Source of the DNA: a virus
Length of the DNA stretch: 24,430 nucleotides
IMG/VR virus record: IMGVR_UViG_3300029913_001680
Location: 1 to 24,430 of that record
Strand: one strand, 5' to 3'
Made by a program: the position numbers and the translations under genes. Positions 14,070 to 22,148 of this stretch are shown here, in pieces. The notes under the pieces were generated by a model, which saw only the letters and a program-made list of their open reading frames with translations, did not search any database and had not been told where the DNA came from. How positions within the stretch are numbered: position 1 is the first letter of the stretch; each line of letters starts with the position of its first letter.

Positions 14070-14513
14070 ATGATAATCAAAAATAAAAAAGCATCTTATG
14101 AATATGAACTACTTGATGAAATAGTATCGGGTATTTGTCTTGTAGGAACAGAAATAAAGTCAATAAGATTAGGTAAAGTATCTATTGTTGATAGTTATTG
14201 TGCATTTCAAGGAAATGAATTATATTTATTAAATTCTCATATTGATGAATATGAATTTGGTAATAGATATAATCATGAGCCAAAAAGACCAAGAAAACTT
14301 TTACTTAAAAAGAAAGAATTATCTAAAATTCGTAAAAAAGTAAAAGAAAAAGGATTTACTATCATAGCTAAAAATATGTTCATAAATGAAAAAGGACTTT
14401 GTAAAGTTACAGTTTGTATAGCAAAAGGCAAAAACACCTACAATAAAAAGGAAAGTATTAAGGAACGAGACATTAAAAGAGATACTGATAAAATTTTAAA
14501 ATCTTATAAATAA
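14070..14513 (+). CDS. smpB: SsrA-binding protein SmpB
   Basis: A 147-residue protein, close to normal length. It matches SmpB throughout: YEYELLDEIVSGICLVGTEIKSIR (family: HxYxIxExxEAGixLxGxEVKSlR), GKVSIVDSYCAF (GkanixDSyv), PKRPRKLLLKKKEL (dptRxRKLLLhkxEi), KGFTIIAKNMFINEKGLCKV, and VCIAKGKNTYNKKESIKERD (lalakGKkxyDKRetiKeRd). SmpB binds tmRNA and brings it to ribosomes stalled on broken mRNA. The C-terminal tail is short and basic (DTDKILKSYK), as needed to fill the mRNA channel. It may work with host tmRNA or with a phage tmRNA; see the tmRNA-like 5' end at 20304. Confidence 0.93.
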   Translation: MIIKNKKASYEYELLDEIVSGICLVGTEIKSIRLGKVSIVDSYCAFQGNELYLLNSHIDEYEFGNRYNHEPKRPRKLLLKKKELSKIRKKVKEKGFTIIAKNMFINEKGLCKVTVCIAKGKNTYNKKESIKERDIKRDTDKILKSYK

Positions 14514-18466: not shown

Positions 18467-18664
18467 CGGTTGGTAGCTCAATAGGTAGAGCAGTTGGATT
18501 AGTCTATAACTAGTATAGAACTAATCGTATTAATAAGAAAAAATTTTAAAGAAGTAAGTCGTTTAAATATAATTAGCTACTATAGAAAATAACCGAAAAT
18601 AAGAGATTAATATTTTTAATATCAAACAGGCAAAAGATAGGGGGTTCGAATCCTTCCCAACTGA
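18467..18664 (+). tRNA. tRNA interrupted in the anticodon arm (identity unknown)
   Basis: 5' part: acceptor strand 18467-18473, T8, A9, D-arm GCTC/GAGC (18476-18479 with 18488-18491) with a GG-containing loop, and the first half of an anticodon stem (GTTGG, 18493-18497). 3' part: T-arm GGGGG-TTCGAAT-CCTTC (18640-18656) and acceptor strand 18657-18663 pairing all seven positions (one G-T), A73 at 18664. Between them about 125 nt replaces the anticodon loop. It begins with a 12-bp hairpin (18497-18508 with 18514-18526, one bulge). The best 3' partner of the stem is CAAAC at 18623-18627, imperfect. No clear group I core motifs. Could be an intron-bearing tRNA, an invaded pseudogene, or a tRNA-like RNA. 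Confidence 0.6.
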
Positions 18665-18678
18665 CAAAATTTTATAAA

Positions 18679-20120: not shown

Positions 20121-20203
20121 GTACCTTTGGCAGAGTGGTTTATGCTCCTGACTTTTAATCAGGGTCCATATGGACAACACGAGTTCGAATCTCGTAGGGT
20201 ACA
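20121..20203 (+). tRNA. tRNA-Lys(UUU) with long variable arm
   Basis: Seven acceptor pairs (20121-20127 with 20196-20202), A73 at 20203, anticodon stem CCTGA/TCAGG with loop CTTTTAA (anticodon TTT), T-arm ACGAG-TTCGAAT-CTCGT. The variable region is 15 nt and contains a perfect mini-hairpin, GTCC-ATAT-GGAC. Lys tRNAs are normally class I with about 5 nt here; the D-arm (GCAGAGTGGTTTATGC) is also Leu/Ser-like. It may be a class II tRNA that changed its anticodon, so the amino acid it carries is not certain. No CCA encoded. Confidence 0.85.
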
Positions 20204-20333
20204 CATTTGTCATAGTGGATGACAGTTATTCAGTTAGGCTGGGCATAAAAATTATCCATCTGAATAGTGAGAAGCTATTATAAAAAATAAATATTAAAAT
20301 CATGGGGTAAAGTTAGATTTCGACAAAAAGTTT
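20204..20333 (+). other. Structured leader with three hairpins and a tmRNA-like 5' sequence
   Basis: No gene is seen. Hairpins: TGTCAT/ATGACA (20208-20213 with 20219-20224, loop AGTGG), TATTCAG/CTGAATA (20227-20233 with 20260-20266), and an alternative AATAG/CTATT (20263-20267 with 20275-20279) that competes with the second. 20304-20324 reads GGGG, ten bases, then ATTTCGAC, the same 21-nt frame as the start of E. coli tmRNA. No T-arm or P2 partner was found nearby, so a tmRNA is not called. Confidence 0.4.
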
Positions 20334-20645
20334 ATGACACAAAGAGATGAAACAGGTAGATTCATTGTTAAGTCATTAAAAACAGGTAAAAGTTATTATG
20401 TGGAACCAATTGGTTCAAAAAGATCATCAAGTTGGGGATCATATAATCCAAGTACAGGTGATATTGAACATAAAAAAGGATATGATAAATATTCAGGTGC
20501 AATATCAGAAAATGAAAGCCTAATTACAAAAGAAAATGGATTTGAAGATATTACATATTCAGGAATAGGTGTTTCGCCATTCTCAGTGATTGAGAAATTA
20601 GATTTGGAATATGAAAGAAAAATAATACTTGATAAAATCAAGTGA
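20334..20645 (+). CDS. Conserved phage hypothetical protein inside the tRNA array
   Basis: A 103-residue protein starting MTQRDETGRFIVKSLKTGKS and continuing YYVEPIG, WGSYNPSTGDIE, YSGAISENESLITKENGF, GIGVSPFSVIEKLD. I recall similar small proteins (RDExGRFIV, TGKxYYVEPI, SLIT.ENGF, GVSP..YI) in large myophages, function unknown. The coding frame supports a real protein and argues against this stretch being a tmRNA body. The stop is 8 nt before tRNA-Phe. Confidence 0.65.
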   Translation: MTQRDETGRFIVKSLKTGKSYYVEPIGSKRSSSWGSYNPSTGDIEHKKGYDKYSGAISENESLITKENGFEDITYSGIGVSPFSVIEKLDLEYERKIILDKIK

Positions 20646-20653
20646 TGGTATAA

Positions 20654-20728
20654 GGGTAAATCGTATAGGTGCTTATTGTACGTTGGTCTGAAAAACCAAA
20701 GGCTGGTGTTGAACTCACCGTTTACTCG
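20654..20728 (+). tRNA. tRNA-Phe(GAA) with unusual D/T loops
   Basis: Acceptor GGGTAAA/TTTACTC (one G-T), D-stem GTAT/GTAC, anticodon stem TTGGT/ACCAA with loop CTGAAAA (anticodon GAA), T-stem TGGTG/CACCG. The T-loop is TTGAACT rather than TTCxAxT, so position 56 is G; the D-loop has GC instead of GG, so C may occupy position 19 and restore the 19-56 pair as C-G. G73 where Phe normally has A73. All stems are intact, so a functional but divergent tRNA is likely. Confidence 0.75.
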
Positions 20729-20745
20729 CTGAATAAAAATAATAT

Positions 20746-20827
20746 GCGTCATTAAGCAAGTGGTCAAAGCAGATGATCTCCAAAATCATTCCGTAAGGTT
20801 CATGGGTTCGAATCCCAATATGGCGTG
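20746..20827 (+). tRNA. tRNA-Trp(CCA) with enlarged variable region
   Basis: Acceptor GCGTCAT/ATGGCGT (two G-T pairs), G73 as expected for Trp, anticodon stem ATGAT/ATCAT with loop CTCCAAA. The D-stem is weak (two firm pairs). Variable region is 12 nt with CC-GTAA-GG, a mini-stem capped by a GNRA-type tetraloop. The T-arm (around GGG-TTCGAAT-CCC) has one extra base before the acceptor strand. Confidence 0.8.
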
Positions 20828-20837
20828 CAAAATAAAT

Positions 20838-20925
20838 GGTAAGTTAAGCAGTCAATTGGAGTGACGACTAGTCTTGAAAACTAGGTTTCGTTTAATCGGA
20901 TGGGGGTCGGGTCCTCAACTTACCG
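20838..20925 (+). tRNA. tRNA-Ser(UGA)
   Basis: Acceptor GGTAAGT/ACTTACC, seven perfect pairs, G73. Anticodon stem CTAGT/ACTAG, loop CTTGAAA (anticodon TGA). Long class II variable arm as normal for Ser. T-stem TGGGG/CCTCA with loop GTCGGGT: position 54 is G rather than T. Confidence 0.85.
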
Positions 20926-20955
20926 CATCAAAATGTTTATTAATAAAGTAATAAA

Positions 20956-20998
20956 AGTTCGTATTTTTATTTAATATATACAAATAAAAATACGAACT
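20956..20998 (+). promoter_or_regulatory. 17-bp perfect inverted repeat abutting the HNH gene start
   Basis: Arms 20956-20972 and 20982-20998 are exact reverse complements with a 9-nt loop; the right arm ends on the base before the ATG at 20999. In RNA this would be a hairpin covering the whole ribosome-landing zone. T4 homing endonuclease genes are known to use start-site hairpins to silence read-through transcripts; the same role is inferred here. It could also end the upstream tRNA transcript. Confidence 0.7.
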
Positions 20999-21724
20999 AT
21001 GAAAAAAGAATGGCAAAAAATAGATATGTTATGCAAAAAAATAAAAGCAATAAATTATTTAGGTGGAAAATGTATCAAATGTGGTGATGATAATATATTT
21101 CACTTATCTTTTCATCATTTAACAGATAAAGATTTTACTATATCACAAATAAAAACTAGTAGATTTTCAAAAATAAAAAAAGAAATTGAAAAATGTGAAT
21201 TATTATGTGAAAATTGTCACATGGAAAAACATTATAATGAAAATATAGAAAATACAAATGAACATAGAAGAAAAAGTAAGTTAATATATTTAAAATATAA
21301 AGGAGAAAAATGCGAAAAATGCGGATATGATAAATGTGCAGCATCATTATCTTTTCATCATAGAGATTCAAAAAATAAATTATTTTGTATTGGTTCATTA
21401 GGAATTAGAATAAATAGTATAGCAGAATTAAAAGATAATATTATAGATGAATTAGATAAATGTGATGTTTTATGTAGAAATTGTCATATTGAAGAACATT
21501 CAGATATTGAATTTTTTGAAGAATTTAAAGAAGAAATATATAATAAAGTAGAAAATTCAAAATATATAGAAAGACAATGTAAAATTTCAAGAGAAGAAAT
21601 AATAAAAATGTATAATTCTGGAATAAAACAAGTTGATATTGCTAAACATTATAATGCATCTAAAAGTACTATTAGTGGAATAATTAATAAATTAAAAAAT
21701 AATGGTGATTTACCCAAATGGTAA
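20999..21724 (+). CDS. Double-HNH homing-type endonuclease with C-terminal HTH
   Basis: A 241-residue protein with two copies of one HNH module: GGKCIKCGDDN, LSFHHLTDKDFTIS, LLCENCHMEKH (about 22-77), then GEKCEKCGYDK, LSFHHRDSKNKLF, VLCRNCHIEEH (about 101-167). Each has CxxC, the His pair and CxxC with a final His, so two zinc-bound nuclease sites are possible. The C-terminus (about 195-235) is a helix-turn-helix of resolvase type: REEIIKMYNSGIKQVDIAKHY then STISGIINKL. Its last seven codons overlap the 5' end of tRNA-Ser(GCU). Location among tRNAs fits a homing endonuclease. Confidence 0.82.
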   Translation: MKKEWQKIDMLCKKIKAINYLGGKCIKCGDDNIFHLSFHHLTDKDFTISQIKTSRFSKIKKEIEKCELLCENCHMEKHYNENIENTNEHRRKSKLIYLKYKGEKCEKCGYDKCAASLSFHHRDSKNKLFCIGSLGIRINSIAELKDNIIDELDKCDVLCRNCHIEEHSDIEFFEEFKEEIYNKVENSKYIERQCKISREEIIKMYNSGIKQVDIAKHYNASKSTISGIINKLKNNGDLPKW

Positions 21725-21793
21725 AGGGGCTGGTTTGCTAAACCAGTAGGGCGTGTAAAAAGCGTTGCGTGAGTTCGATCCTCACAGTCACCG
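21704..21793 (+). tRNA. tRNA-Ser(GCU), overlapping the HNH gene
   Basis: Acceptor GGTGATT/AGTCACC (one T-G), G73, anticodon stem CTGGT/ACCAG with loop TTGCTAA (anticodon GCT), long variable arm normal for Ser, T-arm GTGAG-TTCGATC-CTCAC. The first 21 nt also encode the last residues and stop of the HNH protein. Confidence 0.9.
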
Positions 21794-21795
21794 CA

Positions 21796-21816
21796 AATAT
21801 TCAGAATGTGAATATT
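21796..21816 (+). other. Spacer hairpin between tRNA-Ser and tRNA-His
   Basis: Perfect 8-bp stem (21796-21803 with 21809-21816) with a 5-nt loop filling almost the whole spacer. A likely RNA-processing spacer rather than a terminator, since no T-run follows. Confidence 0.5.
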
Positions 21817-21822
21817 ATATAT

Positions 21823-21909
21823 GGTGCATGTAGTCGGTAAGGGATGCCGCCCTGACTGTGAATCAGGAATACTTAATAGTTAATGTGAGTTCGAATCTCA
21901 TCTTGCACC
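21823..21909 (+). tRNA. tRNA-His(GUG) with long variable region
   Basis: Extra G at -1 (21823) opposite C73 (21909), the hallmark of tRNA-His. Acceptor GTGCATG/CTTGCAC (one T-T mismatch), anticodon stem CCTGA/TCAGG with loop CTGTGAA (anticodon GTG), T-arm GTGAG-TTCGAAT-CTCAT. The variable region is 17 nt instead of about 5 and can form a short ACT-TAAT-AGT stem. The D-arm is displaced: CGG/CCG after an extra GT. Confidence 0.85.
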
Positions 21910-21916
21910 CTCTAAG

Positions 21917-22022: not shown

Positions 22023-22094
22023 GCTTTTGTAGCTCAATGGTAAAGCGGTTCCCTCTTAAGGAAAGGATTGTGTGTTCGATTCACATCAAGAGCA
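22023..22094 (+). tRNA. tRNA-Lys(CUU)
   Basis: Regular 72-nt class I tRNA: acceptor GCTTTTG/CAAGAGC, D-arm GCT/AGC, anticodon stem GTTCC/GGAAA (last pair open) with loop CTCTTAA (anticodon CTT), 5-nt variable loop, T-arm GTGTG-TTCGATT-CACAT, A73. Its normal form contrasts with the enlarged Lys-UUU, Trp and His genes. Confidence 0.88.
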
Positions 22095-22148
22095 CATTTT
22101 TTAAACTTTTGTGTATTATTCGACTATATTTTGTATAAAATATACAAG

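Follow-up and report, generated by a model that had tools for sequence, protein, structure and literature searches.

Long variable arms on tRNAs of class I isotypes are general among phages. The case considered here is a 24,430-nucleotide (nt) stretch of viral DNA (IMG/VR record IMGVR_UViG_3300029913_001680, positions 1 to 24,430; in the following called the window), whose tRNA array contains a tRNA-Lys(UUU), a tRNA-Trp(CCA) and a tRNA-His(GUG) with enlarged variable regions. According to the textbook rule, bacterial tRNAs with long variable arms are those for Ser, Leu and Tyr (and selenocysteine, Sec) only. As a whole, the observations are probably best explained if the long-arm molecules are working phage elongator tRNAs, which use a class II-like scaffold and keep the identity of their cognate amino acid.

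Throughout, tRNAs were defined by means of ARAGORN; scores of the Rfam tRNA model (cut-off 29 bits) are given alongside. The length V of the variable region is the number of nucleotides between positions 43 and 49, counted from the anticodon to the T-loop. For tRNA-Lys(UUU), tRNA-Trp and tRNA-His, ARAGORN and the Rfam placement yielded V values of 15, 12 and 17 nt, respectively, which confirms the enlargement claimed in the original prediction. The genes of the array all lie on the plus strand. tRNA-Lys(UUU) (20121–20204; 57.5 bits) has a class II-like core with a D-stem of 3 base pairs (bp) and A73; its variable arm at 20164–20178 consists of GTCC-ATAT-GGAC followed by AAC. tRNA-Trp (20746–20828) has G73 and a D-stem of only two pairs, and its score of 25.0 bits lies under the cut-off. 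Its variable region at 20790–20801 reads CC-GTAA-GG. tRNA-His (21823–21910 including G-1; 21824–21910 according to ARAGORN and Rfam; 34.9 bits) has an odd D-arm and contains at 21868–21884 a weak 3-bp hairpin with an ACT/AGT stem. G-1 (21823) stands opposite C73, which is the histidine mark. All three molecules thus have the class II structure of at least 10 variable nucleotides with a paired stem, albeit with a stem of only 2 bp in tRNA-Trp. In the ARAGORN folds, the acceptor and T-stem lengths are 7/5 for the tRNAs specific for Lys, His and Ser, and 7/5 with one bulge for tRNA-Trp.

Relatives of the window (L005–L010) were obtained via a protein search; no near-DNA matches of the window were found among annotated phages. 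The check for long arms in close relatives that had been suggested with the original prediction was run. In relatives that are 70–86% identical, the long variable regions of tRNA-Trp (V = 12 in L005, L007, L008 and L010) and tRNA-His (V = 17 in L005, L007, L008 and L009) are kept, and the other helices show compensatory changes. In the Trp alignment of four relatives, 100% of the helix cells are paired and seven pairs are changed on both sides. The corresponding values for the His alignment of three relatives are 95.8% and six, and no shuffle reached any of these values. The U6-U67 mismatch of tRNA-His is conserved. Among these few sequences the variable-arm stems of tRNA-Trp and tRNA-His are invariant, so that they are conserved and do not covary. 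Due to the retention of the arms and the compensatory changes in the other helices, these are not decaying genes.

At the Lys locus, the body of the tRNA has been exchanged. V is 14 in L008 and 16 in L010, and L007 contains at this place an unrelated short-arm tRNA-Lys (V = 5), immediately followed on its 3' side by near-identical DNA. Relatives of the window tRNA-Lys(UUU) that possess the same core occur in L022, L060 and L071. Their arm stems are GTTG-GAAA-CAAC, GTTG-TTCG-CAAC and GTAC-GAAA-GTAC, respectively, i.e. the 4-bp stems covary. The arms and D-arms of the tRNAs for Lys, Trp and His are unrelated in sequence, which rules out a single inserted element common to the three. The shared cause across specificities that had been proposed therefore does not hold as a shared insertion; it does hold as a phage-wide habit.

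The counts for viral contigs refer to the first entries of the scan and not to a random sample. They include at least 120 tRNA-Lys(UUU) matches with V values of 13–28. A scan without length limit gave V ≥ 12 for about 11 of the 120 tRNA-Lys(UUU) (~9%) among the matches listed. For newly fetched viral loci, long arms were present in 9 of 90 tRNA-Asn(GUU) (10%) and 32 of 76 tRNA-Ile(UAU) (42%), again among the matches listed. In two samples that were not chosen for long arms, the fractions, which like all isotype comparisons given here are uncorrected for shared ancestry, were 12/28 for Ile(UAU), 11/65 for Asn and 6/64 for Thr(UGU), compared to 0/46 for Asp, 0/46 for Ala(UGC) and 1/61 for Arg(UCU). 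At 85% identity, 108 long-arm viral tRNA-Lys(UUU) form 88 clusters. In 120 distinct long-arm viral tRNA-Lys, a variable stem of at least three Watson-Crick pairs was found in 89% of cases (40 ± 4% for shuffles), and at most positions of the stem all four types of Watson-Crick pairs occur.

Cellular genomes gave a different picture. In 84,980 prokaryote genomes, the long-V Lys pattern detected 39 stretches, 16 of which are tRNA-Lys(UUU) with V ≥ 12 according to ARAGORN. Among ten proteins encoded beside such stretches, clear phage-type matches were found only near L242 and L257; the rest were silent. When 60 genomes from Pseudomonadota were searched with a Lys pattern of free length, 42 of them matched, and V was 5 everywhere outside the genome that had been chosen for its long arm.

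Long-arm tRNAs of class I isotypes also occur in cultured phages. For example, V is 15 in tRNA-Asn of phiKZ, 15 and 19 in tRNA-Lys(CUU) and tRNA-Lys(UUU) of phiCbK, 15 in tRNA-Lys of RcXuper and 15 in tRNA-Lys(CUU) of CcrBL9 and XacN1. Values of 13–15 were found for tRNA-Asn in Serratia phage CHI14, E. coli phage ESCO13 and the T5-like Salmonella phage sal2. Phapecoctavirus likewise carries a long-arm tRNA-Asn. A T5-like long-arm tRNA-Asn used as a query retrieved 545 phage records, of which 516 cover at least 80% of the query; many T5-like phages carry long-arm versions of tRNA-Asn or tRNA-Thr. The comparison of T5 with T5_ev212 amounts to a natural experiment. Ten of their tRNAs are 97–100% identical, whereas nine others, with the same anticodon and in the same order, are only 54–71% identical. 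Three of these nine change class from T5 to T5_ev212: V increases from 5 to 13 in tRNA-Asn and from 4 to 15 in tRNA-Thr, and decreases from 13 to 5 in tRNA-Leu, with 59–64% identity of the corresponding genes. Whole tRNA genes have thus been exchanged, with retention of position and anticodon. T5 and T5_ev212 therefore possess opposite body types at the same Asn, Thr and Leu loci as the result of whole-gene replacement.

Identity marks were tallied among 2,795 distinct viral tRNAs. In the long-arm molecules, the discriminator and the acceptor pairs follow the isotype of the anticodon; the marks for the cognate synthetase are present, and an identity for Ser, Leu, Tyr or Sec was not found. The discriminator is G in 20 of 21 long-arm tRNA-Asn and 9 of 10 tRNA-Trp, U in all seven tRNA-Cys and all four tRNA-Gly, C in all six tRNA-His, and A in 91 of 120 tRNA-Lys. 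For comparison, the viral class II tRNAs have G in 121 of 153 cases for Ser, and A in 141 of 146 cases for Leu and 73 of 76 cases for Tyr. Long-arm tRNA-Thr contains G1C72 and C2G71 in 15 of 16 cases, and long-arm tRNA-Asn mostly U1-A72; tRNA-Ser has G1C72 and G2C71 (128/153). Base -1 of tRNA-His is a G in seven of nine cases. An altered identity, which the original prediction had considered, is not supported by these data, because the discriminator and the acceptor end of the long-arm tRNAs match their own anticodon, and Ser or Leu marks are mostly missing.

The bodies of many of these tRNAs resemble those of class II. A 3-bp D-stem is found in 63 of 120 long-arm tRNA-Lys, compared to 40 of 237 short-arm tRNA-Lys, and the D-arm is nearest to that of tRNA-Ser, -Tyr or -Leu in 43 of 60 long-arm and 4.5 of 50 short-arm cases. 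The proposal that class II tRNAs had received changed anticodons is partly supported. The placement of the arm was deduced from the unpaired 3' side of the arm stem, which comprises at least 3 nt in 91 of 115 long-arm tRNA-Lys, 51 of 61 tRNA-Tyr, 13 of 153 tRNA-Ser and 16 of 132 tRNA-Leu. Long-arm tRNA-Lys differs in this respect from tRNA-Ser (p=6e-34) and tRNA-Leu (p=7e-28), and not from tRNA-Tyr (p=0.55). The Levitt pair A15-U48 of tRNA-Leu, which is present in 141 of 146 cases, is found in 74 of 81 short-arm phage tRNA-Leu and in 25 of 120 long-arm tRNA-Lys. Short-arm tRNA-Leu (V = 5) is itself frequent among phages, accounting for 81 of the 227 distinct tRNA-Leu from viral DNA (e.g. in L012, L031, L075, L132 and L410), and has kept A73 and A15-U48. 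According to a review, the identity of tRNA-Leu is determined by A73, A15-U48 and D/T-loop contacts, and E. coli LeuRS charges variants of tRNA-Leu without the long arm (PMC9976931). The latter fits the short-arm phage tRNA-Leu.

The observed anatomy, conservation, identity marks, arm geometry and locus-by-locus replacement can be combined as follows. The body of the tRNA would have become a class II-like scaffold with an extra structured variable arm and often a 3-bp D-stem, and the anticodon and the acceptor-end identity would remain those of the encoded amino acid. The host synthetase for the anticodon would then charge the tRNA normally, and we consider such cognate charging highly probable. 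The arm of tRNA-Lys is set at the angle of tRNA-Tyr and not at that of tRNA-Ser or tRNA-Leu. Because of this Tyr-like angle, and because TyrRS also reads the anticodon, the synthetases for Ser, Leu and Tyr should leave long-arm tRNA-Lys alone. New bodies come in when whole tRNA genes are replaced while their positions in the array remain fixed, and this exchange is bidirectional, i.e. a phage tRNA-Leu can lose its arm. A possible driver of the exchange is the HNH endonuclease gene inside the array of the window (20999–21724; PHROGs HNH endonuclease, 5e-33).

With regard to the advantage, T5 tRNA-Tyr has been reported to resist a nuclease that cuts variable loops, owing to its distinctive variable loop (PMC13096335), which makes an escape from defence plausible for long-arm tRNAs as well. 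We tentatively suggest that the arms may help the tRNAs to evade nucleases of the host, or further factors recognising host tRNA bodies, and are not merely tolerated; this is the most attractive reason, although it is somewhat less probable than not. A wider formulation, which we regard as speculative, is that of a disguise: under the selection pressure of tRNA-cutting defences, class I and class II versions might be swapped in both directions at many phage tRNA loci, keeping only those features that are read by synthetases and the ribosome. The Tyr-like placement of the arm would be safe, since an arm set in this way is ignored by SerRS and LeuRS, and TyrRS examines the anticodon in addition.

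Several points weigh against the explanation by working long-arm tRNAs and their escape from defence. U73, which is unusual for tRNA-Lys, occurs in 24 of 120 long-arm tRNA-Lys compared to 18 of 237 short-arm ones (phiCbK, RcXuper, L011, L013, L035 and others are examples of the former). Together with the 25 of 120 long-arm tRNA-Lys that have kept A15-U48, this means that some of them could be poor substrates of LysRS or partial substrates of LeuRS. The Rfam scores of the window tRNAs for Trp and His are lower and their D-arms are irregular. The step of nuclease escape leans on a precedent from another isotype, the isotypes in which long arms are most frequent (Ile(UAU), Asn, Lys, Thr) match known nuclease targets only partly, and the long arms could be neutral.

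The last point leads to the main rival of defence escape, namely tolerance plus exchange. Synthetases that read the anticodon and the acceptor might tolerate any variable region, and class II bodies would be acquired by drift and tRNA gene exchange without any benefit. This has a real, if minor, chance of being correct. Exchange is seen in both directions (short-arm tRNA-Leu; long-arm tRNA-Lys, -Asn and -Thr), LeuRS accepts armless variants as cited above, and the rates differ between isotypes, which would follow from an unequal tolerance of the synthetases: the long arms that are absent or nearly so for Asp, Ala(UGC) and Arg(UCU) are frequent for Ile(UAU) and Asn. However, equal tolerance would apply in cellular genomes, where long arms are almost absent, and the fact that near-identical phages have repeatedly undergone wholesale replacement suggests that difference is selected for.

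The other alternatives are much less probable. Phages are known to use tRNAs against the PrrC and retron/Septu nucleases (PMC11555353, PMC13096335), and long-arm tRNAs might mainly be decoys that soak up host tRNA nucleases or tRNA-binding toxins and do not translate. This is improbable, since the full conservation of acceptor identity suggests that charging matters, and in the retron study it was presumed that rescue needs tRNA function in protein synthesis. It is about as improbable that we are dealing with class II tRNAs for Ser, Leu or Tyr with changed anticodons, which insert these amino acids at Lys, Asn, His and Trp codons. The class II-like D-arms, the fact that the nearest bodies come from other isotypes, and the precedents of misacylated long-arm tRNAs (nematode nev-tRNAs, PMC4300185; bacterial allo-tRNAs, PMC7609411) are in line with mischarging, but the identity marks agree with the anticodon, and in arm geometry and at the 15-48 pair the molecules depart from the Ser and Leu patterns. 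Moreover, the codons AAA and AAU are used very frequently, and mischarging would therefore damage phage proteins. Finally, the score of tRNA-Trp below the cut-off and the marginal one of tRNA-His would be compatible with decaying or mis-predicted genes, whose long variable region is an artefact of the gene finder. This can practically be dismissed in view of the compensatory changes that were found when four relatives (Trp) and three relatives (His) were compared, the structured arms far above shuffles, and the 88 separate clusters of long-arm tRNA-Lys(UUU).

The remaining tRNAs of the array are tRNA-Phe(GAA) (20654–20729; ARAGORN, Rfam) with a normal variable region of 4 nt and an unusual T-loop TTGAACT, tRNA-Ser(GCU) (21704–21794; ARAGORN, Rfam), which is an ordinary class II tRNA whose 22-nt variable arm is normal for Ser, and tRNA-Lys(CUU) (22023–22095; ARAGORN, Rfam), which is a normal class I tRNA with V = 5, as had been noted before. 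The stretch at 20838–20925 is probably a tRNA-Ser(UGA), the T-loop of which is non-canonical. It was missed by ARAGORN and gives a weak match to the Rfam tRNA-Sec model; its anticodon was read from the sequence. The stretch is 97% conserved in L007 and L008, and 80% in L022. The split tRNA at 18467–18665 (plus strand; ARAGORN intron mode) is a separate matter and is not to be counted with the long-arm tRNAs. It had been listed as a further case because of a long segment before its T-arm; in the ARAGORN intron model, the insert of about 118 nt that separates its halves lies near the anticodon loop, and the T-arm is preceded by 12 unpaired nucleotides. Both halves are invariant in L007 and L008, and the insert contains a hairpin with a variable loop. 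A group I intron was rejected, as no intron family of Rfam matched. The phage encodes SmpB at 14070–14513 (Pfam PF01668, 2e-51), and positions 20305–20330 (GGGGTAAAGTTAGATTTCGAC), which are conserved in L007 and L008, resemble the start of a transfer-messenger RNA (tmRNA). A tmRNA in the window was nevertheless rejected, because neither ARAGORN nor Rfam found one.

Two further features of phage tRNAs were observed. A YAGAU motif is present in the variable arm of 45 of 55 long-arm tRNA-Ile(UAU) (shuffled mean 2.2) and is rare in other isotypes. It mostly lies in a 7-nt loop closed by 3–5 bp. The centre of the motif is GAU, which in ordinary tRNA-Ile is the anticodon. The hairpin resembles an anticodon stem-loop that might have been copied into the variable arm. 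Sources of long-arm tRNA-Ile(UAU) are L026, L033, L055, L063, L077, L133, L186, L215, L371, L390, L414 and others; similar DNA exists in the cultured Synechococcus phage SynMITS9220M01, and several of the YAGAU-bearing molecules have a 4-nt D-loop. T-loops of the type AUCGUNA, in which the near-universal U54-A58 is replaced by A54-U58, were found in 89 tRNAs of many isotypes from 66 loci, e.g. in the tRNAs for Lys, Phe and His of L010 and in several of L041.

The rule that only tRNAs for Ser, Leu, Tyr (and Sec) have long arms underlies tRNA annotation, work on tRNA identity and the design of orthogonal tRNAs. Exceptions to it are numerous in phages, occur in cultured model phages and concern E. 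coli hosts with fully characterised synthetases. T5 and T5_ev212 offer natural pairs for asking which elements of the tRNA body are important when a tRNA is charged, decodes or is attacked by defence nucleases, and the long-arm tRNAs bear directly on the question of why phages carry tRNAs. The open full-text literature that was searched yielded no description of phage tRNAs with a long arm and a class I isotype; older or closed literature (e.g. on the sequencing of T5 and BF23 tRNAs) may hold cases. Neither bacteriophages nor viruses are mentioned in a 2020 review of non-canonical tRNAs, and a study of anticodon-loop mutations in phage tRNAs does not mention variable arms.

With canonical bacterial tRNA-Ser, -Leu and -Tyr, the phage molecules share V ≥ 10 nt with a stem and, in part, a class II-like D-arm, and with tRNA-Tyr the placement of the arm; they differ in isotype, since their anticodons and acceptor ends are marked for Lys, Asn, His, Trp, Thr, Cys, Gly and others. 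The selC* tRNA-Cys (Mukai et al. 2017, reviewed in PMC7609411) likewise combines a long arm with a class I identity (U73, GCA). However, it has 8/4 acceptor/T-stems and special SelB/CysRS partners in bacteria, whereas the phage tRNAs are of the 7/5 type, comprise many isotypes and reside in phage tRNA arrays. Allo-tRNAs (PMC7609411) also possess a long arm and anticodons other than those for Ser, Leu and Tyr, but have 8/4 or 9/3 stems, which the window tRNAs lack, and the identity of Ser (or Ala), in contrast to the anticodon-matched identity of the phage molecules. The nematode nev-tRNAs Gly(CCC) and Ile(UAU) (PMC4300185) similarly have a class II body and class I anticodons, including Ile(UAU). 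They are misacylated with Leu in vitro, whereas long-arm phage tRNA-Lys mostly lacks the Leu pattern. The anti-defence tRNA-Tyr and tRNA-Lys of phages T5 and T6 (PMC11555353, PMC13096335) are comparable in that they escape from, or replace tRNAs cut by, host defences. They belong to the normal tRNA class; here, the class itself is changed, across many isotypes.

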